This document shows positions 3,876-58,124 of a DNA stretch of 64,000 nucleotides, in pieces. How positions within the stretch are numbered: the stretch's first letter is position 1; each line of letters starts with the position of its first letter. The position numbers and the translations under genes were made by a program. Below the pieces are notes generated by a model. That model was not told the origin of the DNA, did no database searches, and was given only the letters and a program-made list of their open reading frames with translations. This stretch comes from Diphasiastrum complanatum. Lineage: Eukaryota; Streptophyta; Lycopodiopsida; Lycopodiales; Lycopodiaceae. The stretch lies in NCBI GenBank assembly GCA_029204225.1, contig CM055113.1:11926234-11990233 (forward strand). The letters run 5' to 3'.

Positions 3876-4718
3876 ATGGATCGCCCTAACGATCCAAATA
3901 CTACAGAGGACTATCCACCAGAGATGGTCTCCCCATCTACCGAACAGGCTCGATTTAACAGGTATTCTAGGATGAGATCCCAAGTCCAAGAGCCATCCAC
4001 AAACCCATTCGACAGATGGGAACCTACGCGTTATGAAGCTCCATACGAATGACCACAATTCCATGCTGCCGAATCATCCCATGCAAGAGCTCACTTAAAC
4101 GGAGCTTTCGCAAATAATGTTCCACGTACTGAAAAAAGGACCCCAAAGCTAGACTTACCTAAGTACAATGGTAACACTGATCCTCAGAGATTTCTCCAAG
4201 TCTTTGAGAATGCATGTGACGTCTACGACGAGACATCACCAGAGGCCATGGTACAGCTCTTCTCGATGACCATGATCGATCGCACACGAGAGTGGTATTT
4301 TAACCTTGATCCTGACGATATATGTGACTGGTTACTCTTGAAAGAGGCATTTATCAAATGGTTCAAGCCTTTTCGCTTGATAGAAAGTCCTTTTGTCAAA
4401 CTAAGTAGTATCAAAATGACAAAAGACGAAAAAGTACGTGACTATATCGAACGATTTAAACGATTAAAAAGTCAGGTACAACAGCAACCTACCGAGTCCA
4501 TGCTCATCATTTGGTTCCTCGTTGGACTTCCCCGATGGATCAGATGTGAACTTTGTTCCAATGATGAATATACATCATTGAAACAAGCCATGTCTGATGC
4601 CATTCGAGAAGAAGACGAGGGCTCAGATGTTGAGGAACCACGAGAACGGAGAGCACATCGTGCTGTCCAAGAAGCTCGACCAAACGATGACACACGAGAA
4701 CAGCTATGGAAAACATAG
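3876..4718 (+). pseudogene. gag: Gag capsid region of Gypsy E1
   Basis: The frame starts with MDRPNDPNTTEDYPPE at the first ATG after the leader and runs to 4718 with one internal TGA at 4050-4052. It contains the plant Gypsy Gag pattern: KLDLPKYNGNTDPQRFLQ, then REWYFNLDPDDICDW, then KDEKVRDYIERFKRLKSQV, ending in an acidic stretch (REEDEGSDVEEP). This is a retrotransposon capsid that would form the particle around element RNA. The paralogous Gag of E3 (25435-24680, minus) has the same block order. A stop at 4716-4718 separates it from the nucleocapsid part. Confidence 0.88.
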
Positions 4719-6070
4719 ATGGAGTTGCTTAATCAGCAACACCAACAACAGATGGAAAAACTCACAAAAGAGTCTCAAAACACTCTTATGTCTATCCAAA
4801 GTTCGATGCCAGGTCAGTTACCCACTGGCCAAATCCATCATAGACGAGAGAACACGTGGTGCCCTCACTGCTGAGGTACACACACTGGCAATGACTGCCC
4901 TTCATACCAACCGGTTCCCGATACCTCCTCGATCAAATGTGAAATCTATGACTTTGTGAGGCATACCTCCCTTTATTGCTATTATAACCTGAGAAATCAG
5001 CCTCACAACCAGTCAGGAGGACATTATCAACCTCCTCGACAACCATTTTTTTCACAGCAACAACACACGTCCTATCCACCACGAAACAACCAGATCCATA
5101 TACAAAAGTTGCCCAGACAACCTAGACATCAACCTCAACAACAGCTGGCACTCTTAGGACCACCACCACGAGGACAACAGGATCTAGGAGCACAAAAAAA
5201 TAGACATTCTCGAGAGTTTGCACACACACACCTGGTAGAAAACTCCTATGATCAATCAAACATCATGATACATCAATTCCATCATTTTGCCATCACCAAT
5301 ATCAAACTGACAACTCATGCTCGTGCAAACAAGTTGAGTATTCCACAGCACAAGAAAACCCAACTCAGCTAGCCATCCAAGATGGTTATGCTATCGCCAC
5401 TGGACCCATGAGCAACTGCTGCTTTATTTGTGGCGAAACAGGACATTTCATGGCTGACTGTAAAGTTAGAAACCAATACCATGCCGAATGTCCCGATTGT
5501 GTTCGCAAACACAACTTCAAAGACTGTACTAAACAACCTAACAGGATCCTTCCAGCACTTCATATCACATCCGAACATGTTAGAGTTCTTACTCGAGCAC
5601 AACGCCAACAACAATAACAACAGCAAAACCATGGACAATCAGCTGACCCACATGGAAGCCATTTGACGGCCTCCACATTACCAAAAGATTACCCAGACCC
5701 AAAAGTGGAACAAAGGCAATACAACGAATTTCAAGATGAATTTTTGCAAGAGGAAGAACATACGGACAGTCTGTTATCAGCTCATATCCCCGAAAAGGAG
5801 CAATCCCTCCAGGGACTTGAAGTATTTTCTGACCTCCTGCAAGCTCAACTCACAATGTCATTCCATAGTGCTATCAAATCCTTCACCGGACTTCAACGTT
5901 ATATCCATTGTAGTTTTTAGCTACCTCCTATTCCTGATGAACAACGAAAACCAAAAGCGATTTCTGAAATTCCTCATATTTCTATGAATCTGATGAATAT
6001 AGGTGTTGCTAAGGGGAATAACATCACACTACCCTTGTCCTATAAAAATTATCCCGCAGTATCTTGATAG
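4719..6070 (+). pseudogene. gag: Gag nucleocapsid and spacer region of Gypsy E1
   Basis: Reading frames are broken here but remain recognisable. A Gln-rich linker (LLNQQHQQQMEKL) is followed near 4850 by a damaged zinc-knuckle-like stretch (WCPHC, then GTHTGNDC), a Pro/Gln-rich region at 4980-5200, and at 5408-5470 a clear CCHC knuckle (CFICGETGHFMADC) with a second Cys cluster (CPDCVRKHNFKDC). An acidic segment with EKEQSLQGLEVFSDLLQAQL at about 5790-5850 has a relative in E4 (EQEHPPQGIDIFTTLQFQI at about 21350). The knuckle would bind element RNA. At least three stops or frameshifts interrupt it. Confidence 0.7.
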
Positions 6071-6500
6071 CAGATCATGCGTCAATATAATGGATTTGTC
6101 ATTGGCAAAGTCATGGGGCTTCAATACCCTCGATCAACCATGATATAAACTTCGTATGGCTGATCAACGAGTTACCGACCCTGCTGGTCATTTATCAAAT
6201 ATAACAATTCGAATAGCAGGTGTCAAGTTTATCATCGATTGTCATCTTAGACCTATCAGAAGATGCCAATACGTATAAACTCCTTCTTGGTACACCCTGG
6301 CTCCAGATGGCAGGTGTTGTCCAAGACTGGAAGAACAACAAAATTACCTCTGGCAACCACGATAAACGAGTCACAGTTGACTCAAATGGCCATGTCAAGC
6401 CCGCCAAGGTATACGGTGATTGGTCATCTACAACATATGACGAATCGGATAGTGTCCCGATCCAACCAAAAGGCCACTATACACAAACCACGAACATAAT
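6071..6500 (+). pseudogene. Retropepsin-like protease of Gypsy E1
   Basis: Across two frames the order is DHASINIMDLSLAKSWG, then LRMADQRVTDPAGHLSN, then EDANTYKLLLGTPWLQMAGV. This matches the retropepsin domain seen intact in E3 (LDGGSGINIIS, LRMADQSVVRPTG, SYELLLGRPWL). The catalytic DGGS/DTGS-type motif is replaced by DHAS. Together with a TGA and a frameshift, this makes the protease inactive. It is the usual aspartic protease that would cut Gag-Pol. Confidence 0.75.
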
Positions 6501-6503
6501 CAA

Positions 6504-7175
6504 TTGGGGTCATGCACTAGCTACCGTGGACTCTTTTCGGAAGAAGGTATTCTTTCCATGGATGATGTCGAAATGACGGATGATCATGTACTCCTCTATC
6601 TAGATGCTCAACGTTATCCGTCCAAAGTCATTTCTAAGAAGATCAAGTCACTAGGACCATTAGCTCATGTCCAACTAACATCCAAAGTACCAAACACACA
6701 AGCATATAGGCCCAAAACCAAAGTATATACTTGGGACGGGTATCCCGACAAAGTTTGGGATACAATCGACGACGATATGGTAAGTGAGGCCACAACACCA
6801 CCCATTCAAAAACCACAAAAACCTCGGTTACAAAAAAATAACATTATTGATACAAAATTAACCGAGCGACAGAAACAGATGCGTGCGAACCTTAAACAGC
6901 CAATCAAGCTCTTGTCAGAGGGGACAGACAATAAACACTCCGACAAAGCTTCCACGTCTGATAAAGAATCACCTCAAATGATTCCTAAAGTCCTAGAACA
7001 TTTTGTGGACCCACCTTTCGATCTTCCACAGAAGTTCAAAGACTTTACACTGGATGATGTTGTTATCCAGTTACCGCAACCACATCGGGAACCTACACCA
7101 AGTTCCAATTCCTTTGAAAGACCCACTAAGACAATTCCACTAAACCTTAAAGATCCTGATGAGGACATAGATTGA
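6504..7175 (+). pseudogene. Linker between protease and RT of Gypsy E1
   Basis: An uninterrupted frame of 223 codons lies between protease and RT. It is hydrophilic and Pro/Lys-rich with no motif I recognise, containing KTKVYTWDGYPDKVWD and a phrase ending LNLKDPDEDID. E3 has lost the corresponding region, so there is no second copy to compare. It is probably part of the polyprotein rather than a separate gene. Confidence 0.55.
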
Positions 7176-7196
7176 ATAGTTCATGTTGGTGCACAT

Positions 7197-8695
7197 TTGT
7201 CATCAACCCAACTATTTGATCTAGAGACTTTATTATGCAAATACAGGGATGTATTTGCATGGAATTATACTAAGATGAAAGAAATTCCCCCGGAAATAGT
7301 AGTACATTGGATTCCTCTAGAAGACAATGCTAAGCATGTTAGGGCTAAACCTTACCGCAGTTACCCAGTCTATCGTGAGAGGATCGACGAAGATATTAAG
7401 AAATTGCTGGATGCTGGCTTCATTTATGAAGTCCAACATACTGATTGGTTATCACCCATTGTGGTTGTACCCAAGAAAAACGGCAAGCTTTGTATTTGTG
7501 TTGACCTCCAGAACCTTAATGCGGTTATGAAGAAAGACCATTTTCCCTTGTGCCTAACAACCCAGATGTTAGAGAAAATGGCAGGAGCTGAAGCTTTCAG
7601 CTTCTTGGATGGATTCAGCAGCTATTTCCTTGTTCAAATAGCCCCTGAAGATAAACATAAAACAGCTTTTGCCACAGAGAGCGGCATTTACGCTTATAAC
7701 ATTATGCCTTTTGGCTTATGTAACGCCCCCTCAACATTCCAATGGGTCATGCAACTGGCCTTTCAAGATCTGTTACATCGGGTCGTAGAGATTTATCTCA
7801 ACAATCTAGGTGTACATTCTTCCGCTGCTACACACCTAGACGCCTTGGAGAAAATCTTCATTCGTTGTCGTAGGTTCGGCATCTCACTAAACCCTGATAA
7901 ATGCCAAATATGGGTCACCCATGGGGTTGTACTCGGGCATATAATATCAAAGGACGGTATTTCTACCGACCTGTCAAAAATCAAGGTTATCGTGGACATG
8001 CCCCTACCTGCAACAGTGAAGGAAGTATATATCTTCCTCGGTCATACCAACTACTATCACATCTTTATAATCGACTATGTCGGCAAGGCACGTCTCGTTT
8101 ATTTAGTTGTGGTAGATCCTCGCTGGACCGAAGAATGAATTAAGGCCTTTGAGGAGTTGAAGACAGCACTCACAACGGCTCCCATACTCCGCTCGCCAGA
8201 TTACATGAAAGAATTCCATGTGCATACTGACGCAAGTAAGTATGCCATTGGGGGTCTTCTTGCACAACTGGACGAGTATGATAAGGACTTTCCCATACGT
8301 TTCTTAAGCAGGCAACTGGTGCCTGCTGAAGTAAACTATACCACTACCGAGAGAGAAGCATTGGCAATGGTCTATGCGGTACAACAACTACGACATTATT
8401 TATTAGGCCAGACCTTTGCTTTCTACACAGACCATCAAGCACTCCTATATATCGTTAATAAGTCCTGTAAGACGGGACGAACAGCTCGATGGCTACTAAT
8501 TTTGGAGAATTTAATTTCCGTATAGTCGTTCGGAAAGGGTCCCAACATTTCATGGCGGATCACCTTTCCAGACTACCAAGTGCTAAAAAAGCAACTGCAC
8601 CAGTCAACGATGATCTTCTTGATGCATGCCTTTTTCAGATCGATGCCACACCCCTATGGGCTGAGGAGATCACTCAGTTCCTCACAATAGGCTGA
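7197..8695 (+). pseudogene. pol: Reverse transcriptase-RNase H of Gypsy E1, catalytic box altered
   Basis: The frame contains the Gypsy RT series: KHVRAKPYRSYPVYRERID, IVVVPKKNGKLCICVDLQNL, then MPFGLCNAPSTFQ. The catalytic box reads YLNNLGVHS instead of the usual YxDD, so both metal-binding Asp codons are now Asn. RNase H follows with FHVHTDASKYAIGGLL, TEREALAMVYAVQQLRHYL and FAFYTDHQALLYI. A TGA at 8136-8138 separates RT from RNase H, and a frameshift near 8490-8520 separates RNase H from its end (FNFRIVVRKGSQHFMADHLS). The related minus-strand RT at 38160 reads YLDNLGAHS. The enzyme is certainly dead in this copy. Confidence 0.9.
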
Positions 8696-36901: not shown

Positions 36902-38256
36902 CTAGAAAGCTTGATCAGTGGTTACAAGGTGTAAAGGCATGTAGTCGGTCTTTTGAAAGCGTTTTGTGTGTTGGCAGACATCACAAGCCTTAGTGTAATT
37001 GTGCGTATCCTTGAAGAGTGTTGGCCACCAAAAATCGGCCAAGAGGATTTTGTTAGCAGTCGTTTCAAAAGAGAAATGGCCTGCACCAATACCTTTATGA
37101 GTGAGAAAAATTATAGACGGTATTTCTCCTTCAGTAAGACATCGTCGAATGATTCCATCTAATCCTTGCTTGTAGAGTTGTCCTGCAATTAACGTATAAG
37201 GTTTAGTTTTGAGGATCAATGCACGTTGTTCAGGTTTAGACAAGGAAGGATCCATTTGCCTTGAAGTTAAATATTTTGGGATTTCATTAGCCCATACGGG
37301 GGTAGAGTCAACTTGGAAAAGGATGGCATCTGGTAAATCATCGTTGACACCTTGATCAGGGGTAGGAAGATTAGGGATTCGGAACAGATGATTTGCTAGA
37401 AAATGTTGAACTCTCTTACGAACCACGATCCTAAACTCAAGTTTTCGCAGTAATAGGATCCATCTAGTAATACGACCTGTGGTGCAGGTCTTGTTGATGA
37501 GATACAATAGTGCTTGATGATCGGTGAAGAACGCAAAGATTTCTCCTAGAAGATAATGGCGAAACTTCTGAACCGCATATGCCATTGCCAAGGCTTCACG
37601 TTCGGTGGTGGTATAATTGACCTCAGCAGATATCAATTGTCGACTAAGAAAACGAATTGGGTAATCCTTTTTTAATTCTCCTGGTTGGGTGAGAACTGCT
37701 CCAATGGCATACTTGGATGCATCGGTATGCACATGGAATTCTTTAGAATAATCAGGAGCCCGAAGGATGGGTGCTTTGGTAAGGGCTTCTTTGAGTTGAT
37801 TGAAGGCGACACGTTGTTCATCCGTCCATTTGGGAACTACAACTACTTTGTGGATTAAGCGGGCTTTGTTAGCGAAATCGAAAATAAAGCACCGATAGTA
37901 GTTGGCGTGGCCAAGGAAGAAGTAAACTTCACGTATCGTACGTGGTTCCGGTAGATTTTGAATGATAAGGATATTTTCAGGATCAGTGGCAATGCCATTT
38001 CGTGAGATAATATGTCCTAACACAATACCATGGGTTACCCAAATCTAGCATTTTTCAGGATCAAGAGAGATACCGAAGCGTTGACATTGGATAAAATTTT
38101 TTTTGAGCACAGACAGATGGCGTATTTTTTCTGAATGTGCTCCTAAATTGTCCAAATAAACCTCTAGGATATCGCCCATCTGTTGAGAAAATGTCGCTTG
38201 CATAACACGTTGGAAGGTGCTAGGGGAATTGCAGAGACCAAAAGGCATGACTACCA
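36902..38256 (-). pseudogene. pol: RT-RNase H-integrase zinc region of the E3-type Gypsy
   Basis: From 38256 the RT reads MVVMPFGLCNSPSTFQRVMQ and the catalytic box EVYLDNLGAHS, with Asn at the second Asp. A TAG at about 38046 separates it from a 373-codon frame: the RT thumb (LGHANYYRCFIFDFANKARL), RNase H (FHVHTDASKYAIGAVL, TEREALAMAYAVQKFRHYLL) and the integrase zinc segment (HKGIGAGHFSFETTANKILL, KACDVCQHTKRFQK). The RT N-terminal half is missing where the Copia LTR begins. Confidence 0.9.
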
Positions 38257-39169: not shown

Positions 39170-41323
39170 CTATACATTATGCCAAGCCATGGATTCCAAG
39201 GCATTTTGTGCACTTGAAGATACATCGGTAAAACTATTAAGTGCATACATATTGTTGCCAAAGACAATTTGCCTTGCTTGATCCATATGATTGAGCCTAG
39301 ATGGCTCCATCTTGATACTCATGGTTCTTCTTGGAGTCCTCGGGTCTTGAGCTTGCTCCTCCACTTGACTTGACTCCAAACCATCAATGAATTGAATAAG
39401 GTGTTGATCCAAAGGTGCTTCTTCAAGTTTACAAATCTTCCACTCTTGAAAGATCACATTTCCACCATTGACAAATTCTTTGGTTGAAAACATGTAGATT
39501 CTACAATCTCTACTTGAAGAGCAGAACGCTACCATTATTCCTATCATTGAAATAGGATAATCTTTGGTCCTTACATTGGAATGATCATGCACAAAGCATG
39601 TGGACACAAAGATTTCCAAAGCAAATGATGTTTCATCTTTTATGACTCTATTCAAACTATTACAAAAATAGTTATCCAATGAAATTGCTTTATCAACAAC
39701 AAATGTAGATTTCAAAGCAACCCATTTCATTGTCTTGTCATACAAAGTATTAAACACCATGAATCTTAAAGGTAAGAAACAAGTCACCTCATGTCTACTA
39801 CTACTTTCCAAAAAGTATTCAAAGATAGTAGACTCTCCAATGCTCACCACCATTGCAAGATGCACACTTGAATGGACAATTTGCATGCAATTTGATGACT
39901 CGGCCATTGTCATTGAGGACTCCCTTGGAACTCTCATGCTTTGAAGCTGATCCTCAAGATCTTCCTCCTTTTGATGCTCGTCCTCAATGCAAGCAAGATC
40001 ACACTTTGCCAAGATCTCCTTTTGAGTGACCTCCTTTGCCAAGCTCATTCTTTCAAAAGCAACACTAGCTTCCAACTTAAACAATCTTCCATGTTTAAAT
40101 CCCTTTGCAATGCAAACATCATTCTTCAAGATGAAGCAAACACCATGCTTAAAGTGGACATCCAAACCACTTTCTAAGAGTAGACCAACACTAAGCATAT
40201 TCTTGGTGATTGATGGTACATAAAGGACATTTTCTAGATCCATGCATTTTGAGGATTCCAGACACAAAGAGATGGTGCCAACACCATCTATCCTAAACTC
40301 TTCATCATTTGCAGTAAAGACAAAATTTTTAGCAGCATTGTAAGAGTGTAAGGTTGAGAAAAAGTCCTTTTCACAAGACATGTGAGAGCTAGCCCCACTG
40401 TCAATCCACCAATTGTCTCTTGAATTGCTATTGCTTGTTGGTGAGAATGTAGATGCCATCAAGAATACATCTACTTTATCCTCCTCCTCCTCCTTTGCAA
40501 GGTTTCCTTGTTTGTCCTCCTCCACTTGTGCTCTTAGCCTCTTGTAGCATTCCGATGCATAATGCCCCTTCTTTCCACAAAAGAAGCATTTCTGCTTTGA
40601 CTTGTCCTTTGAGCTTGATGCATCATCCTCTTCTTTGGCCTCCTTTGGATGCTTCTTCTTTTCATCGGTCTTCTTTTTGCCCTTGAATGAGAAATTGCCT
40701 TTCTCATCACCATCCTGCAAAGACAAGGAACTCATCCTAGATTTTGCATGGAGCATCCTACACTCTTCAGCCACTAATACACTGTGAAGTTTTTCTATAG
40801 TTGGCAAAGTGTCTTGGATGGCAAAACTTTGGACCAAATTTGCAAAGTCATCTCCTAGACCATTAAAAACAATTTGTACAAGCTCTCCATCATGAATCTT
40901 CTCTCCAATGGAAGCCAACTCCCTATTTAGAGACTTGATTTTGAGTACATAATCTTGTGCACTCTCTTCACTTCTCCTCATGCTTTGCAAAATTTGATTT
41001 CTAAGCATAAGAACTCTAGAAGTGTTGCTAGACTCATAGATTTATTTTAAAGACTCCCAAGCCTCTTTAGCACTAGCACAAGCTGATACTTCTCTCAACA
41101 AATCATTGCTCACATTCATCTTCACACAATGAAGTGCAAGCCTAGATCTCTTCTTGTATCTAGCTAACTCCTGTGCACCTAGAGGTTCATCTTCATCTTC
41201 AATCAAGAACTCATAAAGGTCTTGGAGCACCAAGAGTGACTCCATCCTAACTTTCCAAATAGCATAATTTGTAGAATTCAACCTCTCACTAGCTTCTAGA
41301 AGGTATGCTCCAGCAGATCCCAT
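39170..41323 (-). pseudogene. gag-pol: Copia Gag-protease-partial integrase polyprotein
   Basis: Starting at MGSAGAYLLEASERLNSTNY, the frame is broken only by one TAA at 41044-41042. Then 612 codons are open. In order: capsid helices (SMRRSEESAQDYVLKIKSLN), a zinc knuckle CFFCGKKGHYASEC, an aspartic protease motif WWIDSGASSHM with LENVLYVPSITKNMLSVG, and degraded integrase C-terminal sequence (STCFVHDHSNVRTKDYP, RIYMFSTKEFVNGGNVIFQE). It ends at SSSAQNALESMAWH, which in Copia elements lies just before RT. The integrase core, RT and RNase H are absent. The long surviving frame suggests fairly recent mobilisation in trans. Confidence 0.86.
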
Positions 41324-47082: not shown

Positions 47083-49708
47083 ATGAAAGGTCTCGGACAG
47101 AGGCAGGTTGTGGCAGTGAAATCTGTGACCGGCGCTGGCGGTTTGGAGTGGTGGAGCAAGGATAAACTACTTCCAGGAGATGTTCTGGAGCAGCTGAGGG
47201 TGGTAAGCAATGTTGTGATATTAGTGAATGCCCCTTTCCCAGGGGGCAAGGCAGGTCTTCAAAGTGAACTTCGCGAGATCTACAATGTTGGCGCAAGAGT
47301 AATCGTGAAGGCGAGGCGAGGACGACGACAAGACAAAGAAGCCATAATTGTAGAAGTGCATGCCTGTGTGGTGGCTGAGGAATCAGTTATGCGGAAGAAA
47401 CACTACTCCTTAGCTGATGCCAATGATAAAAGCCATATAATCGTACTTATGGATGGGTCAGAAGAAGAGTGCATCTCTTTGCAAAGTAAGAGCCATGGCT
47501 TTCAAATAAATGAGCTTTCCGCAGCATGAGCTATCAGAAATGCCTCAATGCTTTTGCACTTTATTGTGAGAGTGGGATTTTGTCGTTGACCTTGTTCTTG
47601 TCTTTGTATTTCATTTTTACGTGTGCCGATTGAAGTCCTGCGGAATTCTAAGCTATACTGCTTCATTGTTCTCGATCTCTGATTTGTTAATTTATTAAGT
47701 TCGTACTAGTTTCTTCTTGACTTGCTATTGTTGAGATATGGGCGGCAGATGAAACTCGCAAGGTTCTTGAGGAGGTAAGGAGATCACGCGTGGCTAATGC
47801 TCAATTGAAGGATTGCCTTGTACCGTACACTTGGCAGCAAAAGATGCAGTCCTTTCTTCCCTGTCCGAACTCTGGCATGATATTTTCCCTGCTATTGATG
47901 CCCTTCCAACCAAATCGTGCTTTTCCAGAATTTTACGATATGGAAGAGACGTCGGCGAGGGCAATGGCCTGGCTTTCGTCTGCACAGACTTCTGGAGTTC
48001 CCATCACCTTTGTTAACATTCAAATCGAACCGATACTACTGCAGGTCCTTCCATTGAACCACCTCAAATACCGTGCTTGTTTTCTAAGCCTTTTCAAATC
48101 ACATTTAGCAATACATGTATGTTGATGTAACAGCAGTTGGTATGTCTGGTTGAAAATCGACTCTCATATATTCTTTGTTACGCAGGGATCAGGCTCAAGT
48201 TATTTTGGTTCAAGCTCAAAGGAAGACCTTCCGAGTGTGGTGAATGTAGGCAAGTACACCATACAAGATTGGCAGGGAACTGATATTCACATCGTTAGGG
48301 CAATAAGACTCTGGTTTGCCCCTGCTGCGGCTGAGCTATCCGTCAATCTGAAGCCAACTGTGGGTGAGACACGACTAGGTGTTGGCATTAGCAGGACTGA
48401 GGAGGTAAAATAGCCAGGACTTTAGGAATCTAGAATTAGGTTTCTGTAATCTCCAAAAGCCATGAAATCTTCTGAAATTTCGCTAACAGAAGTTGCACAT
48501 CATATCATATACGATAGTCAGTGAAAAGTTTGGAGCTAAGGAGTTCACCGTTTTTAAAGCTTTGGTAGGCTGTGTTTTTTATTTTTCTTCATTCATTCAA
48601 CAACTGATGCTGATAAGTAGTACTCCTTGTCCTGTTCATGTTGATGGTTTGATATGGATATTTGGACTCATTTAAGTCTATATGTATTTTGTTCTGAGCA
48701 TATTGCCTAATGACATTGCTAATATTACAATTCCAACTTGAATACTTGCCAATCTCATAATGAGATATAGTACTGATTGTCTTCTCGAATTCTATAGTGA
48801 TGTGGTGTACATTTCCTATCATTAAAATGAGGAGCTAAAACAAGCTATTGTGTTGGCAGGGCTTTTGCTATGTTTCTTCAGTAGATCATGGAACAGCAGC
48901 AGACCGTGCTGGTTTAAAGAAGTTTTATGAAGGAGCATGTTCAGCTCAAAAGCTTCTTGTTATCTCTCGTGTAGCTGGAGAGAAAGTCACTCCTTGGATG
49001 GTAAATTCATCAGGGTCAATCAGGTGCTTTGATACTATATCTATAAGTGAAAAACTCTCTGCACACCGACAAGCTCAGCAACCTATTCAATTCCATCTCA
49101 TGATCTGGGATGGTGCTTTTGACGGGCAAGGATGGAAGTTAGAAGTGAATGCCAGTTCTAGGACTGGGGTAACAGATGAGCCTGCACCTGTTGGTTCGAG
49201 GGATGGGCGTTCTAACCCTACATCACGAAATTCAAGTCCAAGGAAGTTGGATCGGCACCAACATCATGCATCAATTAGCAGTTCCAGCCCAAAGCAATCT
49301 GAATGGCATTATCAGTCAGATGGCAACTCTAGCCCAACGCGTTCCAATGTATATCATTCACCTGATGGTAGCACAAGCTCAAGACTTTCAAATCAGGATC
49401 ACCAAACAGATGCCAATGGCAATATTAATCATTCTTTTAGTTTCAATCGATCTCAGCCCCAAAAAATTGAGTCCATGCCCTGGGGGTTGACTCCAAAACA
49501 GAGTAGAGAAGGAAATAATCATTGTAGAGTTCATCCCAGAGACATTTCTAGTGAAGATGGAGTTGATGATGCAGTAATAAAGGAACAATCTGAAAGCAGA
49601 GAGTCTCGACTTGCATCTGCCCTCAAAAGAGCTGTCAGTGATAATGAGCTTGCAATTGATGAAATACAACCTGTTAAAGAAAATATGGACTTCTCTTTTA
49701 GTTTTTGA
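47083..49708 (+). CDS. Conserved plant protein of unknown function with a PDZ-like domain (4 exons)
   Basis: Exons: 47083-47485, 47749-48044, 48186-48404 and 48860-49708, with GT-AG introns whose phases keep one frame without stops. Exon 1 carries GGLEWWSKDKLLPGDVLEQL and VVILVNAPFPGGKAG, exon 2 QLKDCLVPYTWQQKMQSFLP and LSSAQTSGVPITFVNIQIEP, exon 3 VVRAIRLWFAPAAAE-like sequence (IVRAIRLWFAPAAAEL). The join of exons 3 and 4 (LGVGISRTEEGFCYVSSV, then GTAADRAGLKKFY) looks like a PDZ fold. The C-terminal 180 residues are Ser/Asn/Gln-rich and probably disordered. I recall similar uncharacterised proteins in angiosperms but know no function. The start is the first ATG in exon 1; an upstream exon beginning near 46217 is possible. 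Confidence 0.85.
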
Positions 49709-50519: not shown

Positions 50520-50546
50520 CATTAGAGGAGTTCTCAATATCAAAAA
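50520..50546. repeat. Left inverted repeat of the candidate element
   Basis: A 27-bp sequence beginning CATTAGAGGAGTTCTC is repeated as its exact reverse complement at 58098-58124. Confidence 0.85.
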
Positions 50547-50986
50547 AACCTTTTGTAAAGATACTTTTATTTTTATTTTTTTAGTTTCGACCGTCACCAG
50601 GCCCAATAAAAATTCACAGATTTGAAATCTACGTAACGTAGTTCAAATTAAGTAAAAAATAAAAATGCAATATAGAAAACTTTGAAATTTGTGTACGGGC
50701 AACATGGACGTATCCCATTGGTTTCTTCTTCCTGCCCGACACGTGCTAATCTGCCCGACGTCAATACCTCAAGTTAAATTTACTTTACTATGCTGGTTAG
50801 TATAATGAAATTTTCTAACTATACTAGTTACAGTTATAGAAATATAGTATGTACAGTTACATAAAATATGGTATACGCAGTAACTTTGACTATGTTGGCA
50901 TTCACATTAGATTAAATGTGATACGAAAAATTAAAATTAAGTAATATATTAGAGAGATTTTTGGCGCCCAAGCTTTGAAAATAGCA

Positions 50987-52357
50987 ATGGCAAGGAGACC
51001 CAGATCTACAATCGATTCTGTGATTCTTTACAATGAGAAAGATGAAGCTGATAACTGGAAGCCAACAAAATATATGAAGAACTCATGGGTATTGCTGCAT
51101 CAATCATCAAAGGGCAATTTTCGACAAAAGAAAAGAGCAAAAATGACTTACAAATCTTATTGGAAAGCAAAAAATTTTGAGTTTAAGACTACCCCGGGAG
51201 GCCAATCGATATCAGAAGTCTTAGTGCAACATGTATATATGCATTCAGAGATCAAAGTACATGATATCAATCCTCATGATCATAAAAAATATAATTGTAA
51301 GTATATCAAAACATATGCACTCTACAGCAATCATAGGTGATTTCCTTTATTGATGCTCTTCAGATTATGATTTAAATGCCTCAACATTATTTTTTTCTTT
51401 CAGATTTATATCCATCATGCATAAGTGAATGGGAGCCCGCACAATCACTTGCAAGAATATTAGACGTGATTCACTCTGATGTTGGAAAGCTGCAATACAG
51501 AGAAAGAAGTCCAAAGGAGCTTGCAGATTGTGGTATCTATTTTTATGAATCTTTATATACGCCACAAACAGATGGAGGTTTTGGCAAGCTCGAAGCAATT
51601 CCATTGCCTAGTTTTCAAAGTAATGAGTGGCCTACTCGTCACAGCATTGTTTCTGAATCCTTCAGATGCAAGCTACTTTGATATTAGAAATGCTATGAAG
51701 ATAAGCCCAGACTCGAAAATTGTTCACCTAAGTTGATTTATCTCATTACATATATTTGTTGATTTTTTCTCGAGTGCTAGTGTTCGTAGGACACCAACTT
51801 TATTTGTTTGCAAGGATTTATCAGATGAGACTTTGTCAGATCTCATGGATCAAGGTTGGGATAGTAAAACAAATAATGACATAGAATGCAGGACTAAAAA
51901 GTCCTCAATGATCTTTCGTTATCATATCGAAAAGCAAATGCTCAGTCTCACATTTAGCTACCAGTGATACAAGAAAATTGAAGGTACATGGCTACCACTG
52001 GATCAAGACATTGAACTAAAAGGTCACACAAATCGAATGGAAATAAGCATTATCTACAATGAAGAATATTTTACTATGGTTGAGGTGGAAGAACATTGGA
52101 AACTTGATTTTATCAGAACAGAGCTCATGCTATTACAAACCAATCTACCAACATATTTCAGATTTATCATCAACGGAAGACTCGTAAGTACTTTATGTTT
52201 ATTGCCATGTCAAAATAGAACAAAATAATAGACAATTTCATGATTTACAATTGCACATTCACTAATATTTGTCATGTCACAGATGCGAAAAAGACAGGAG
52301 CTGATAACGTGCTGCAAAGATCTACCTACAACAATCACCATTGAGGGAGAACAATAG
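50987..52357 (+). pseudogene. Cassette gene A, unrecognised spliced protein
   Basis: It starts MARRPRSTIDSVILYNEKDE at an ATG (50987). Exon 1 ends at 51296 (T|GTAAGTAT), exon 2 starts at 51404 (TTTCAG|A), and the last intron is 52184-52282. Readable parts: KMTYKSYWKAKNFEFKTTPG, GIYFYESLYTPQTDGGFGKL, FDIRNAMKISPDSKIVHL, LFVCKDLSDETLSDLMDQGW, MEISIIYNEEYFTMVEVEEH, and an end TCCKDLPTTITIEGEQ. TGA stops occur near 51734 and at 51967, and a frame change near 51640-51670. The IYNEEYFTM phrase resembles YINDDVYFTM in gene C. I do not know the family. Confidence 0.6.
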
Positions 52358-52553
52358 TTTCAAATAAACTTTAGTAGAAATCTGTGTATACACTCTTTCA
52401 TTCAATAAATGAAAGCCCAAGTTGGGCATCAATACATGTATTTTGTGCTCCCAAATTCATAAAATGGAGCAGCAATTGATATATAAATGTATATTTTTCT
52501 ATGAATTCTATACATGTAATTTTTTTTCTATGCTATCTATATATGTTCTGATC

Positions 52554-54196
52554 TTAATTTAGTACTTCTACATCATCCTTTGCACCATCATCAATAAAGG
52601 GAGGCTGAAGCCTTGCCCTAGCCAATATACTCAGGATGATTTCTTGTCTGAATCTGTACACCTAGCTTGATGTGTACTCAGAAAGTGTAAACTGCAAAAT
52701 AGAACATTCATGTATTAGTAATGGCTAAAAACATCAACAAAATAGAAAACTAATCATGATTCCAAAAATAAGAATAAACAGTTTATTACCTTGGAAATAT
52801 CAACATCTTCTGGAAGGTTGAACCACTCAAAAAATAACTTGGCATTGTATAACGTGTACCACCCACAGCTGAATCATTTTGCTATGGTGACTGCAAAATA
52901 ATTCAACACAAAAGAAATCAATTATGAAACATAATGAATTAGAATGAAACAATCACGTTAGAATATTGATTTCAACATGCTATTAAGAAAGATAGAGTTT
53001 ACCTACAAACTCACGATCTCCCAATCCACAGAATGGGAAACATCTATAGAAATATATTTACTTAAATATGACAGGTATATATCTACATCCTTATGCGTAT
53101 TATTCGCCAAATTCATCTTGACACAAAAACCTTTGATACTATTATTTACAAAGCTCTTAATAGAGATCAGGTTGAAACTCCAGTGGTCACTGCAAAATAA
53201 GATTGAAAGTACTTTAGCGGCAATTCTGAGATCTATTTAAATTAAAAATGTCAATGTTATTGCATAAAACAGGAAGAATCACTTAATATATCCTACTTGG
53301 TATGATAAGGAATGACCAGATACTTTGTTGCTAGTGTGAATCCACTTGTCAGACACTGTGACAATGTGTCATTATTCTCCTTGAAGGCCTGGAGCAAAAA
53401 GTTACTTAGAACCAGCAACTCGTTTGATGAATCTCTTGCAATGTCAAATTGCAAGAGTGTCAGCCCAGACTCTATCATAGGATCACTGATAGAAGTCCGT
53501 CTATCTTTGAGATCCAAGCAATCTAAAACTCTAAAATTATTACTAAAATCAAGTTCATCTAGTCTAAAACAAAAAGGAGTGCCAATTTTATCTATAACAT
53601 CTGATATGTCTTTCTCAAATCTAAGATACTCATCCGAATCTATATATGTATAAAAAATTGGAGGAAGAGGAGGAGGTGGATGTGTAGTATCTATAGGAAT
53701 TAAAGCGGTATCCAAAACAACTATAGCTATATTTACAGCATTATCAACAACAACGTTATCTAAAATTGATTCTAGGTCAGGTTTCACAGAATCTGTGGTG
53801 TCTACGATCTTTGCTTTCTTTGGAGCTCTCTTGGGGGCACTCTGCTTCCTAGGACGCTTCATAGGAAGATCAGTCCTATCTACAGGTGTTGGCCTGGGAG
53901 CAGAAGGCTGAGATATGTGCAACCTACAGAACTTATCCCTCATTCTCATTAGGAGCTGAAAATCCTTGGGCATTATTGTGACTCTCTTGGAAGGAATGGC
54001 AGGCGAAAATGAATCTTCAAAAAAAAGACTAAGGTAATCTTCAGCAGCCTCCTAAAGGAACTGAAGAGCACTGGGTGTAAATTTGACAAGCTATCCGAGA
54101 TCATTTCTTGTTATGTTTCGGACAACACGGTAGAATGGAGCCCTTGGGATCAACAGCGCAGTTGATCTCTGGTACTTGCGTATCTCAGAGAGCCAC
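52554..54196 (-). pseudogene. Cassette gene B: CENH3-like histone fold fused to a Ulp1/C48-like protease
   Basis: Minus-strand exons: 54196-53297, 53189-53015 (or 53003), 52890-52790 and 52691-52554. Exon 1 shows VAL, then EIRKYQRSTALLIPRAPFYR, then KFTPSALQFL, EAAEDYLSLFFED and IPSKRVTIMPKDFQLLMRM. These are the N, 1, 2 and 3 helices of histone H3; LLIPxAPF and a longer loop 1 are typical of CENH3. A basic linker follows (MKRPRKQSAPKRAPKKAK), then about 180 residues with FRLDELDFSNNFRVLDCLDL. Across the first splice YLVIPYHTNDHWSFNL gives the Ulp1 His-Trp block. Exon 3 has PxQNDS next to CGWYTLYNAKLFFEW (catalytic Gln and Cys), and exon 4 ends YRFRQEIILSILARAR. Damage: TAG at 54093-54091 and 54054-54052, a frameshift after VAL, TAGs in the last two exons, and a frame change just before CGWY. 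The histone N-terminal tail is not found. Confidence 0.72.
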
Positions 54197-54284
54197 CTGC
54201 TGCACGCGCACAAGTGCGATATGCGGAGCAAAAAAAAAAAGTGAAAAAAATTCATCGAAGTTTGTGATTTTATATTCTGGTTCG

Positions 54285-54561
54285 CACGTGCGAAAGAATG
54301 TCCAATCACACGTATGGGAGTTGTACGAACAAATGACAGAGCGACATGTGTCACATTGTCACTTTACACGTGTGGAATTTGTACGAGCAAATGATAGAGC
54401 GACACGTGTTTTTGAGCACACGAATGAACATGCGACACGTGTTCAGTTGTCATTTCACACGTGTCCAGGTGTCACCTCACACGTGCCAGTAGTTGTAGTC
54501 GAATCGAAAGTAGACACGTGTCTATTGACCGTTGATCGCACATGTGAAAATTTAGTATAAA
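54285..54561. promoter_or_regulatory. Divergent promoter with seven CACGTG boxes
   Basis: CACGTG occurs at 54285, 54367, 54403, 54436, 54458, 54480 and 54515, mostly as ACACGTGT/ACACGTGC. Related ACATGTG sites lie near 54345 and 54541. A TATA-like GTATAAATGG (about 54554-54563) faces gene C. CACGTG is the G-box bound by plant bZIP and bHLH factors, and ACACGTGT resembles ABRE-type sites. The block lies between the 5' ends of genes B and C. Confidence 0.75.
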
Positions 54562-54787
54562 TGGCATGAAAACCGATTAATTTTTAACTTTTTTCCGTTA
54601 TCGAAAGTCACGGCATATCGCTCTTGTGCGTGCACTTTGTTGACCGTTTGCACTCAACGACACCTACTTGCGCTCAAGTGCAATATTCGGTATCTCGAGC
54701 CGTACATATCTCTCTTGTGCGCCATCTTGATAGTTAGTTTTCTTTCTCGTCTCCCTCGTGCACAAGTGCGATATTCACTTTATTTCA

Positions 54788-56271
54788 ATGGCCTCTTCCT
54801 CAGGATCCTCACGAGATTCAGGCTTGAGTTCATTTCTTAGTGAATTTGGGATTACTAAAAATCTGGACTACTTCCACAACCTATTCAGGCCATATCTGCA
54901 TGTTTTCAGGACTGCACAACCGAATTTTGACGTTTTTTTATCAACATTATGTTAGCTTCAGAGATATACTTAGTAAGCCTGTTTTCTCCATAGGTTCAGT
55001 CCAGTACATGCATTATACTAATCTGGTTCACTTCTTTCCAGCTTTCAGACATAGATTGGATAGAATGTTCACCAAATTGTTTGATCTTTTCAAAAGCAGT
55101 TCAATGTGTCCTTATTGCAACAAAAAATGTCGATTGGTTGAATATCAGAGTGTCGTACTTTTTTTGTTAGTTCAGATCCCAGATTTTCATCATCCTCCGT
55201 TCAGTCAGCTATCAAGGACATCAGTCACTTTCTTATCGACACTCCTGATAAGCAAAGTGACTTTATAAATATAAATACTGATTCTCTACGGGATTCTTTT
55301 ATTGGCCAAAATACATCTGCTGATGAATCCAACCCTACAGAGGATTCTAAATGTCTATTCAATTTGTCTGTATATTATATTAATGACGATGTATATTTTA
55401 CTATGGCTGATTTATGTAAATTTTTTGACTATCGTGAAGACGAGGTTCTATGTTTATTATCCGGCACAATTTTCAAATTCTCCGACTTCGTAGATTTTGA
55501 AACAGATGATCTTGTTGCTGGTATTGATTTTGATGATGAGGAGAGAATTATGAGTGCTGAAGAATGCTTGACTAAGACTTTATCAAATATAGCTGAGGAT
55601 GGGCAAGGCAAACCATCCGATGAAGAATTCATGGCATTTCAATCCCAGATGGGCTTCTCTCGTCCATCATTATTGCATTTCATGGATGATTCCAGTTTAG
55701 TACGTGGTCATTATATTGATCATCCTGATCTGGTTGCTGTTGATGATGAAGAATGTGTAAGTGTTAAAACCTCCTTGCATTACAATATTTCTCATCACTG
55801 AATGTGTTTTTGCTAAGAAATTTCCTATTGCAGGATGCTCTCATAATAGATGATTTTGCTACAAGATGAGGTGCTTTCAGACAACATGCATCGTCTTTCC
55901 ATAGGGATAGTGGACTTGGCCACTATCTTAGGCATTTCCTGAAGAATGAGATATGTATTGCTCATTCCAAGCTGAGCCCAGTCGGGGAGACTCTTATAAT
56001 GGCAGTTAAAGCTTTATCATTTTACCTAGGAGGACATAAATTTGTAAAGACAAATAAGATCATTTTTGTCAAAAGATCTTATGTTTTGAACATTTTAGGC
56101 TTTACTGATGGGAATGTTCCTTTAAGGAGCTCCCATTATTCATTGTATTCCACTTATATTGAGCTTAGTGGAAATAAGGATAATGCAAATCTATTAGATG
56201 CATACGCTAGCAGAGAATTTTTTCATGACAATACTGCCATAGAATTTGACACAAGATCTGAAGATGAATAG
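54788..56271 (+). pseudogene. Cassette gene C, unrecognised spliced protein with a CxxC motif
   Basis: It starts MASSSGSSRDSGLSSFLSEF at the first ATG 230 bp after a TATA-like site. The frame changes at a T7 run (about 54930-54937) into YQHYVSFRDILSKPVFSIGS, continues to SMCPYCNKKCRLVEYQ, and changes again at a T7 run near 55160 into PRFSSSSVQSAIKDISHFLI. Next comes VYYINDDVYFTMADLCKFFD, an acidic middle, an intron (55757-55833), and the final exon. That exon has a TGA just after DDFATR, then KALSFYLGGHKFVKTNKIIF and KRSYVLNILGFTDG. Restricted damage, two shifts at homopolymers, means it could be intact in reality. YINDDVYFTMADLCKFF vaguely recalls KilA-N/BRO-type starts, unproven. Confidence 0.62.
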
Positions 56272-56396
56272 TTAACACTTTGTATTTTGGTATAATACAT
56301 TTACATTGAGTATTTCTCCTTTCTTGTTCAATGAATTTGCAAAGCAATTCTGAACATGTCATGATTTGATGATAATGATGATCTTGTACTCAACAA
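56272..56396. other. Convergent 3' ends of genes C and D
   Basis: About 125 bp of AT-rich sequence separate the stop of gene C from the last recognisable codons of gene D; probably shared 3' flanks. Confidence 0.5.
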
Positions 56397-57863
56397 TCAT
56401 CTAATTTTCTCTTCTTGTATGAACTTGCATGCTTTTCTAAACTTGTTGTATTGTGTGAACTTTGTTGTATGTCGAATTTGAACTCTGCGGTAGAACCACT
56501 GAAACAATTGACAAATGTAGTTTCGTTTTTCATTGGTTCCTCCATGTTGTGTATTTCGATGAAATGCTGCTCGTGCTTGCTAGTGTGACTTCTCCATCCC
56601 TTGTGATGACCATACACTCAAGCTTCCATATGTATTTGCAAAAAATGTTGTATGATCTCTTAGTATGTGCTGCATATGTCAAAATCATAATGTTAGTCTT
56701 ATGTTTGGATCTAAATATATATTTAAATTTGAAAGCATTTTAAGAATTTAATACTAACCATGTAATGAGTGATGTGATCATCTCCCCATGCTTTTGATAC
56801 TGCATTAACAAACTCGACACAAGTCCTTTGGACAGCTTTCTTATCAATATCAGAATATTTTTCTTTTCTTAAAATAGCAATCATAATATCAAGCTTTTTC
56901 CATACATCAACTTTTAGTACTCTGATTTTGCCGTCTTTCTTGAAGTCCTGAGTAGCAGCAATAATATCTGTCCAGACTGCGTGTTGAATATTAGAAGCCC
57001 TACCAGTATGATTTGATAGGAAATGATGTGCTTTTGCTCCTCCTATGCTTGGCTTAGTTGGCATGTTCCCATTCTTTCCTGAAAGCTTTTCATCTTTTTG
57101 AATTTTGACATGTCCTTTATGGAGTCCTGCTTTTGATAAAACATCTTCTAATCGAGAGATAACTTCCTTTGCTAATGATGTTGGCTTAGTATTCCAAGCA
57201 AAAACTATATGAAGATAAATGATCTTTTCTATTAATCTAACTTCTGCATGAAGAGTGCAAACATGCACATTTTGTAAGGGGATAGACAGCACAAGCTTCC
57301 AGTTTGGATCCGCATATTCTCTAGTAATTCATGTGCTCCTAGTTACATCTTTTGCCATTTTCATACAGTACAAACAAGGGTGTTTTGATGTAGCACCGTG
57401 AGAGACATTATACATACATTTTAATGTTTTCAAATCACCTGCTAAGTGTCATTCAACATTGAAGTCTCCAACTCTTGGAACATTGAGAAGTCCTCCATCC
57501 ATATGGTCCTTGATGATCCTAGGATAAGATGTCCTTGAGAATATCCATGATAATATATCATGATCCTCTTTTAGCACCTATCCAAAAAAATTAATCAGAC
57601 TTAATTTACAATGTATTAATACTATTCAATGAATGTAATGTAATAATGAGGCTAGTTACCTGAAACGCTGCCAACCACCATATATCATTTTCTGACTGGA
57701 CACTGAATCTGAAATCTTCTTGGTTCTCTATTTGTGATAGAGCACCATTCATGAGAGTTATACTAACCCTCTCCATCTTCTGCCCTTTCACAATTTCTGA
57801 CTCATCTAACATATGTAAACATTTTGCAATTTTTTCTGATTCGAATTTGGGGATGGCGGTCAT
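56397..57863 (-). pseudogene. Cassette gene D, transposase-type protein, spliced
   Basis: Minus-strand exons: 57863-57660 (MTAIPKFESEKIAKCLHMLD to ENDIWWLAAFQ), 57577-56759 and 56670-56397. Exon 2 has GGLLNVPRVGDFNVE, then KTLKCMYNVSHGATSKHPCL with a CxxC pair (CLYC), then LQNVHVCTLHAEVRLIEKII and GKNGNMPTKPSIGGAKAHHF. Exon 3 has GSLSVWSSQGMEKSH, then QARAAFHRNTQHGG and QLFQWFYRRVQIRHT. From memory, phrases like GSL..SxQGxEKxH and NCxLHAxxRIxEK occur in large transposon-encoded proteins of plants and animals. I cannot name the superfamily. In-frame stops: two TGA in exon 2, one TAG in exon 3, one TGA at the end. No DDE triad can be assigned with confidence. Confidence 0.6.
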
Positions 57864-58097
57864 ATTCTAGATCTATTGAAAATATTGCTCTTTTCGTAAC
57901 CAATGGAGGGAATATTTTTGAATTTAGTAAGTTATACTGCGAACTGTTAACAGTTTTTAACTGTGACTATAGACACTGTGGTTAGATCATTGGGAGTTGG
58001 GGAGGCCTTGAGAGTGGTGTGGGCAAGCAAATAAACAATAATGTTTTTTTTTTTTTTGATATTTTTCTATATCCTACATGGCATTCCTTAAAGGGTC
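57864..58097. other. Right-hand noncoding part of the candidate element
   Basis: This is the upstream region of gene D. It has a T-run at 58026-58039 and no other recognisable signal before the right inverted repeat. Confidence 0.45.
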
Positions 58098-58124
58098 TTT
58101 TTGATATTGAGAACTCCTCTAATG
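58098..58124. repeat. Right inverted repeat of the candidate element
   Basis: Exact reverse complement of 50520-50546; it reads TTTTTGATATTGAGAACTCC at its start. Confidence 0.85.

Follow-up and report, generated by a model that had tools for sequence, protein, structure and literature searches.

A histone H3-type fold joined to a Ulp1/C48-like protease domain in a predicted multi-copy DNA transposon of Diphasiastrum complanatum

Introduction

Some transposons encode proteases, chromodomains or anti-silencing proteins. Giant viruses encode histones, and a bracovirus encodes H4. These virus-encoded histones resemble the gene described here in that a histone is carried by a mobile or parasitic genome, whereas the H3 fold reported below lies in what is very probably a short DNA transposon and is fused to a predicted protease domain. 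We know of no transposon that carries a core histone, and open-access texts, judged by their titles and the starts of their abstracts, yielded no report of a transposon-encoded one.

The closest described systems are transposons with Ulp1 domains. According to excerpts of a 2026 review of gene capture by plant transposons (PMC13317346), Arabidopsis elements with Ulp1-bearing VANC (KIU) genes induce hypomethylation of related elements. These Vandal/Mutator-like elements are multi-gene plant DNA transposons with one gene that contains a Ulp1/C48 domain, as is the element analyzed here. In the KIU elements, however, the partner of the protease domain is VANC and the ends are of the non-TIR type, whereas here the partner is an H3 fold and the ends are inverted repeats (same excerpts; VANC was sought in our sequences via Pfam alone). 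Ginger1 transposons, in excerpts of their description (PMC2836005), bear Ulp1 or OTU domains. They are inverted-repeat elements that have Ulp1 in some members; unlike in the present element, their Ulp1 domain forms the C-terminus of an integrase-type transposase and they make 4-bp target duplications. The word 'histone' does not occur in the Ginger1 paper PMC2836005, nor in the main text of the review PMC13317346.

Here we describe a gene in a window of 64,000 nucleotides from the lycophyte Diphasiastrum complanatum and its relatives elsewhere in the same genome. The relatives fall into three families of elements with H3-like genes, called A (to which the window copy belongs), B and C. The multi-copy transposon, its three other genes and a second family that has the H3 but no detected C48 all go beyond the initial annotation of the window, which had described an H3 fold fused to a Ulp1-like protease.

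The fusion gene in the window

The gene occupies positions 54196-52554 on the minus strand, where all of the H3, HW and Cys blocks reported earlier were found (Table 1). Two pieces of the broken frame, scanned separately, match the Pfam Histone profile with E-values of 1.8e-8 and 7.9e-6. A read-through translation, with X for stops and the exons joined at the introns, gives 6.2e-21, and the intact relative L021 described below gives 1e-27. The earlier observation of minus-strand H3 blocks that continue into a basic linker is confirmed. A search of the PDB with the window H3 returned H3 chains (best E-value 3e-19). Scanned by itself, the protease half falls slightly below the 20.7-bit cut-off of Peptidase_C48, with 19.8 bits and an E-value of 7.6e-4.

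The three introns (53296-53190, 53002-52891 and 52789-52692) start with GT and end with AG. Their borders align across the window and seven other copies, individual splice sites being mutated in some of the others, and the four-exon splicing suggested earlier agrees with this alignment.

The window gene is a degenerate copy, a pseudogene. Its H3 part has stop codons at positions where relatives have Gln, the frame breaks before EIRKYQ, and a 4-base deletion precedes the active-site Cys, with additional stops downstream. Several of the stops are TAG where relatives have CAG (in one case GAG), and TAG is, by our own reading, by far the most frequent stop among the listed genome H3 matches. TAG in place of CAG would fit decay at methylated CHG sites, that is, formerly silenced copies.

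Some other reading frames of the window were inspected. The frame 48839-49708, which adjoins the element, encodes 289 residues, finds nothing in Pfam at E<=1 and resembles a host-gene exon. Long open frames at 4053-8138, 36902-38044 and 39170-41041 resemble, by eye, gypsy- or copia-type retrotransposon proteins.

Table 1. Predicted features of the family-A copy, in window coordinates
Feature	Position	Strand	Basis
Entire DNA transposon copy of family A (7.6 kb), with internal deletion compared with other copies	50520..58124	.	Inverted repeat pair, shared right borders with unrelated flanks
Terminal inverted repeat CATTAGAGGAGTTCTCAATATCAAAA...	50520..50554	+	35 nt, 94% complementary to other arm
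Terminal inverted repeat, opposite end	58090..58124	-	35-nt pair with 50520..50554
Third element gene ('right', MARRPRSTIDS...), broken in window; no credible domain	50987..52228	+	Related family-B protein by eye
Exon 4: arginine-rich C-terminus and stop codon	52554..52691	-	Alignment of copies
Exon 3: block with Gln and Cys (QND...CGWYTLYNAKLFFEW); frame shift in window	52790..52890	-	Alignment of copies
Exon 2: C48 HW (His) block	53003..53189	-	Alignment of copies
Exon 1: H3 fold, basic linker, N-terminal part of C48 domain; 5' end in window lost or unclear	53297..54196	-	Intact homologous exon in L021
H3 fold (alpha-N to alpha-3), with frame shift and stop codons	53930..54196	-	Pfam Histone, PDB H3 chains
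Second element gene ('middle', MASSSGSSRDS...), broken in window; no known domain	54788..56271	+	Conserved in relatives
Large transposase-like gene remnant, approximate limits; relatives' blocks KLDE.EIVKG, EWHLAGDLKTLKCMY, GGAKARHFLSNHT	56500..57866	-	Comparison with relatives

The transposon surrounding the gene

Twenty stretches of 10 kb were taken around H3-like matches elsewhere in the genome. They were picked from the listed matches mostly for long open frames, so that the sample is skewed to better copies. Eight of them (L013, L017, L018, L021, L024, L025, L027 and L028) align with the window over kilobases and form family A together with it. The window element has the inverted ends CATTAGAGGAG.... 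The right end, ...CTCCTCTAATG, stops at the same base in the window copy and six others, and the DNA beyond it is unrelated; L013 deviates by one base and L025 by three within the last 22. L021 and a neighboring stretch contain both ends of an element, 8.7 kb apart.

A 31-base end of family A occurs exactly 604 times in forward and 593 times in reverse orientation, 1197 in all, in the 1.74 Gb genome, and its reversed control does not occur. The family-A H3 DNA, searched with an inexact query pattern, has 96 + 86 = 182 matching places (control 0), of which a few of the 100 listed may come from other related families. Inverted ends, sharp borders and differing flanks in many copies are what is expected of a TIR transposon. 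The fusion gene is therefore almost certainly a gene of a multi-copy, multi-gene TIR DNA transposon, as judged from the sequence comparisons. A host gene is excluded because the gene sits within an inverted-repeat element that occurs in many copies. Across 11 end pairs, nine of which were assigned to one element by spacing alone, there is no consistent target-site duplication: a 3-bp match was found in two pairs and a 2-bp match in one.

The transposase-like protein of family A, assembled as a composite of relatives, has no Pfam match at E<=10, which also distinguishes it from the KIU/VANC elements. Its family-B counterpart matches nothing transposase-like in Pfam, and an NCBIfam scan of the transposase-like protein gave nothing credible. 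The transposon is possibly a new superfamily.

On contig C1, 28 of the 99 family-A ends lie within about 1.8 Mb (C1:64.97-66.68 Mb) and 26 lie at C1:95-100 Mb. All ten ends sampled from the 28 have a common outer flank, 94-99% identical, and two ends sampled at 98.4 Mb have another common flank. The sampled ends are duplicated blocks rather than separate insertions, which excludes centromere targeting as the cause of the clustering. Because of such blocks, the counts of ends exceed the number of independent insertions.

The intact protein and its C48 half

The first exon of L021 has an open frame from MDRRKQTRRDFF, and removal of three GT-AG introns gives one open protein of 470 residues without a stop. 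This protein matches Pfam Histone with 97.3 bits (E-value 1e-27; cut-off 26.4) and Peptidase_C48 with 42.2 bits (1.1e-10; cut-off 20.7). The profiles thus support both halves, the window copy itself having fallen just short for C48, and the family-A gene is predicted to encode an H3-type fold, a basic linker and a Ulp1/C48-like cysteine-protease domain in one chain. The possibility that the two halves are always separate genes is contradicted by eight of nine family-A copies, the window included, in which the C48 part is joined to the H3; it is lost in L025. Of the nine, L021 is the only copy demonstrated to be open through all four exons, and most are broken. A search of the genome for the C48 family, with the exons searched separately, gave three matches among the 150 scored of 520 candidates.

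The C48 half of L021 finds Ulp1 chains as its best matches in the PDB, with weak scores (0.0011 for 6dg4 and 0.0015 for 1euv). It shares the HW block, the oxyanion Gln and the catalytic Cys with the ULP1/SENP SUMO proteases, from which it differs in its divergent sequence, in its position behind a histone fold and in having no evident Asp of the catalytic triad. In the eight aligned copies the HW His and the oxyanion Gln are present in all, and the Cys, which follows the Gln by six residues, in seven, being deleted in L024. Of the catalytic residues that the initial annotation named as required by Ulp1/SENP proteases, His, Gln and Cys are thus kept, but Asp is not evident: in the eight copies, inspected by eye, Lys occupies the aligned position and the closest candidate is an Asn a few residues further on. 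Papain-type proteases have Asn at the third catalytic position. With no evident Asp, the predicted protease may be weak, altered or inactive. The domain is assigned to Peptidase_C48 by profile score, and proteolytic activity is not claimed.

Families B and C

The genome-wide search for H3-like sequences reported 153 matches. Among the matches listed, thirteen score near 164 bits and the others 83-110; of these others, the 20 in the stretches above were assigned to a family. The thirteen, one of which was read through, look like the host H3 proper.

Eleven of the 20 stretches contain a different H3, that of family B. Its start was sought in six stretches and found in five: it reads MSEEMARTKQTARDPRV in L009, L010 and L011 and has one or two changes in L012 and L016. 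The start includes an exact H3-like MARTKQTAR, and it is separated from the fold by a long, acidic tail that is rich in SR and in proline. In the four copies looked at, the fold ends after alpha-3 with RRER, one further residue and a stop. The whole gene is one open frame of 417 residues in L009, which matches Pfam Histone with 101 bits (cut-off 26.4). A tblastn search with the C48 half of L021 found no C48 in the 11 stretches at E<=5; since family B has the H3 without C48 in the part read, not every such element needs the fusion.

Family-B ends (CATTAGGGCCCTTTTTGGACTC...) have 328 + 325 exact matches in the genome (control 0), and the family-B H3 DNA occurs at 95 + 103 = 198 places at up to three mismatches (control 0). 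Families A and B have the first six bases of their ends, CATTAG, in common. Their transposase-like genes are 40% identical across 555 aligned positions, and two further genes are, by eye, common to both. The order of the four genes also appears similar by eye, with the H3 and middle genes oppositely oriented in A and B relative to the transposase-like gene. Two family-B ends at C1:67871296-67872435 are separated by just 1.1 kb and likely mark a non-autonomous derivative.

Family C is represented by L026. Its protein starts with MARTESTARATTT... and matches Pfam Histone with 93 bits (cut-off 26.4), and an element end lies nearby. In families A and C the H3 runs on into a linker and a predicted C-terminal protease. 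Two different H3-bearing elements are adjacent in L026, the second being a truncated, decayed fusion copy.

The nature of the transposon H3

The transposon proteins have a complete histone fold and an H3-like start in common with H3 and CENH3/CENP-A, and a LIPxAPF-type motif that resembles plant CENH3. They are distinguished from both by Trp47, by tails without ARKS where scanned and by being transposon-encoded at hundreds of places. Core H3 has an ARKS tail and ends after alpha-3; the fold of family B ends there too, whereas A and C continue into the protease half. The fold is 54-56% identical to host H3 in family A, 55% in B and 48% in C; the corresponding values for an approximate reference sequence of Arabidopsis CENH3 are 50-51%, 47-48% and 43%.

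Trp at H3 position 47 and the LIPRAPF-type motif are present in all six A, B and C sequences compared, one A copy having V for A in the motif and one K for R. At nine of 18 checked positions the residue of host H3 is kept in all three families (R69, R83, H113, K115, R116, T118, K122, D123 and R131), and several of these are presumably sites of contact with DNA or of H3-H3 or H3-H4 contact. Given these kept positions, the transposon H3 fold may still pair and bind DNA. At the other nine positions (47, 56, 63, 64, 72, 79, 110, 126 and 128) one or more of the families depart from host H3, and R63 is replaced by Pro in all three. H3-like N-terminal starts are MDRRKQTRRDFF, MARTKQTARDPRV and MARTESTARATTT. 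None of the 15 tails scanned contains the ARKS motif of the K9/K27 type, although those from family B are in many cases incomplete.

The window H3 had been credited with hallmarks of CENH3. The LLIPRAPF motif is present, and together with AAEDY and KDF it is similar to plant CENH3 in an alignment with approximate reference sequences; the longer loop 1, however, amounts to one additional residue in family A and is absent from B and C, which have the length of H3. A specifically centromeric identity finds no support in the PDB matches, the C1 clusters or a small tree. The best 60 of 171 PDB chains all carry H3 or general histone names and no centromeric one. The tree (11 rows, four of them approximate references, poorly resolved) groups A with C, leaves B unresolved and places none with CENH3, without deciding between H3 and CENH3.

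Selection on the copies

Substitution ratios were calculated with codons containing stops or gaps skipped and broken copies included. For exon 1, dN/dS is 0.23-0.36 between the two family-A subfamilies (9 pairs) and 0.40-1.13 within them (6 pairs), the higher values within subfamilies being expected of copies that are dead after insertion. In the H3 domain pN/pS is 0.14 between subfamilies (9 pairs), 0.30 within and 0.17 when six copies are pooled. For the C48 half the ratio is 0.30 between subfamilies and 0.41 and 0.52 within; it is 0.58 pooled for the linker with the start of C48 and 0.40 for the H3 domain of family B (ten copies). Such values suggest that the H3 and C48 halves of the family-A protein have both been under purifying selection. 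The introns diverge by 0.095 between subfamilies, less than the synonymous values of 0.21 in the C48 half and 0.358 in the H3 domain, so that the deficit of amino-acid change (pN of 0.063 and 0.051, respectively) is milder when measured against introns.

Discussion

The best explanation, to which we assign a probability of roughly 45%, is that a transposon-encoded H3-protease enters or docks on nucleosomes and either counters silencing or aids transposition. The H3 fold would pair with host H4 and would enter, or dock on, nucleosomes by the element's DNA or the transposition complex. Its tail would lack ARKS, where the silencing marks on H3K9 and H3K27 are written, and the protease would remove SUMO-type modifiers from silencing or repair proteins nearby. 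The element might thereby oppose silencing or help transposition, in the manner of anti-silencing proteins with a Ulp1 domain from plant Mutator-like elements. Evasion of silencing had already been suggested in the initial annotation. As for the mechanism, anti-silencing by an H3 variant without ARKS combined with a deSUMOylase is favored over targeting, and targeting over centromere mimicry, a tentative preference that falls somewhat short of even odds.

Targeting alone would mean that the H3 fold, by attaching to H4, nucleosomes or DNA, just positions the transposase complex, and that C48 serves to mature or regulate the transposase or to make repair easier. The H3 gene accompanies a transposase-like gene in both A and B, and a role of Ulp1 domains in transposition has been proposed (excerpts of PMC2836005). 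The exact H3-like MARTKQTAR of family B, however, hints at more than a docking fold, and we regard this account as unlikely. Rather less probable is that the element mimics the centromere, with a CENH3-like variant whose loading is aided by the deSUMOylase, giving the element a means to seed, invade or exploit centromeric chromatin. The CENH3-like motifs noted above would agree with it, as would the finding in Arabidopsis that SUMOylation of alphaKNL2, undone by ULP1d, controls the targeting of alphaKNL2 to centromeres and CENH3 loading (excerpts of PMC12903445). Against it, identity is 43-51% to the approximate Arabidopsis CENH3 reference versus 48-56% to host H3, the best 60 of the 171 solved matches bear no centromeric name, loop 1 is longer by one residue at most, and the ends clustered at C1 65-66.7 Mb belong to a duplicated block (10 of 10 sampled of 28).

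The broken state of most copies, with L021 alone of nine shown to be open across four exons, and the mild deficit of amino-acid change against introns would also be seen if functionless fragments of host H3 and ULP had been captured by chance, and gene capture is frequent in plant transposons (excerpts of PMC13317346). We think this improbable, since family A and B H3 sequences occur at 182 and 198 places, Trp47 and the LIPRAPF-type motif are common to A, B and C, pN/pS is low in both halves, and the copies share introns and include one that is intact. An endogenous virus with a viral histone is the least credible origin, although giant viruses do encode histones. The element has short inverted-repeat ends and four genes, among which no capsid or polymerase was recognized (by eye, and with Pfam on the three other genes). 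The fusion has no relative in a collection of viral contigs, a search whose reach is close relatives only, and a viral relative is excluded to that extent.

Beyond the preferred reading of a nucleosome-directed H3-protease, one may envisage that these DNA transposons form a lineage, perhaps a new superfamily, which brings along its own nucleosome: an H3 that cannot be marked at K9 or K27, tethered in some families to a deSUMOylase and deposited to rewrite chromatin on the element's own copies. This is a speculative extension, and we consider it slightly more doubtful than anti-silencing as such. If it is true, no core histone encoded by a transposon would have been known before. The many copies and the intact reading frame make the system directly testable. 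Should the protein enter nucleosomes, a mobile element would be influencing host silencing in a novel manner, and the protein would provide a natural tool for learning what an H3 without silencing-mark motifs does in plants.
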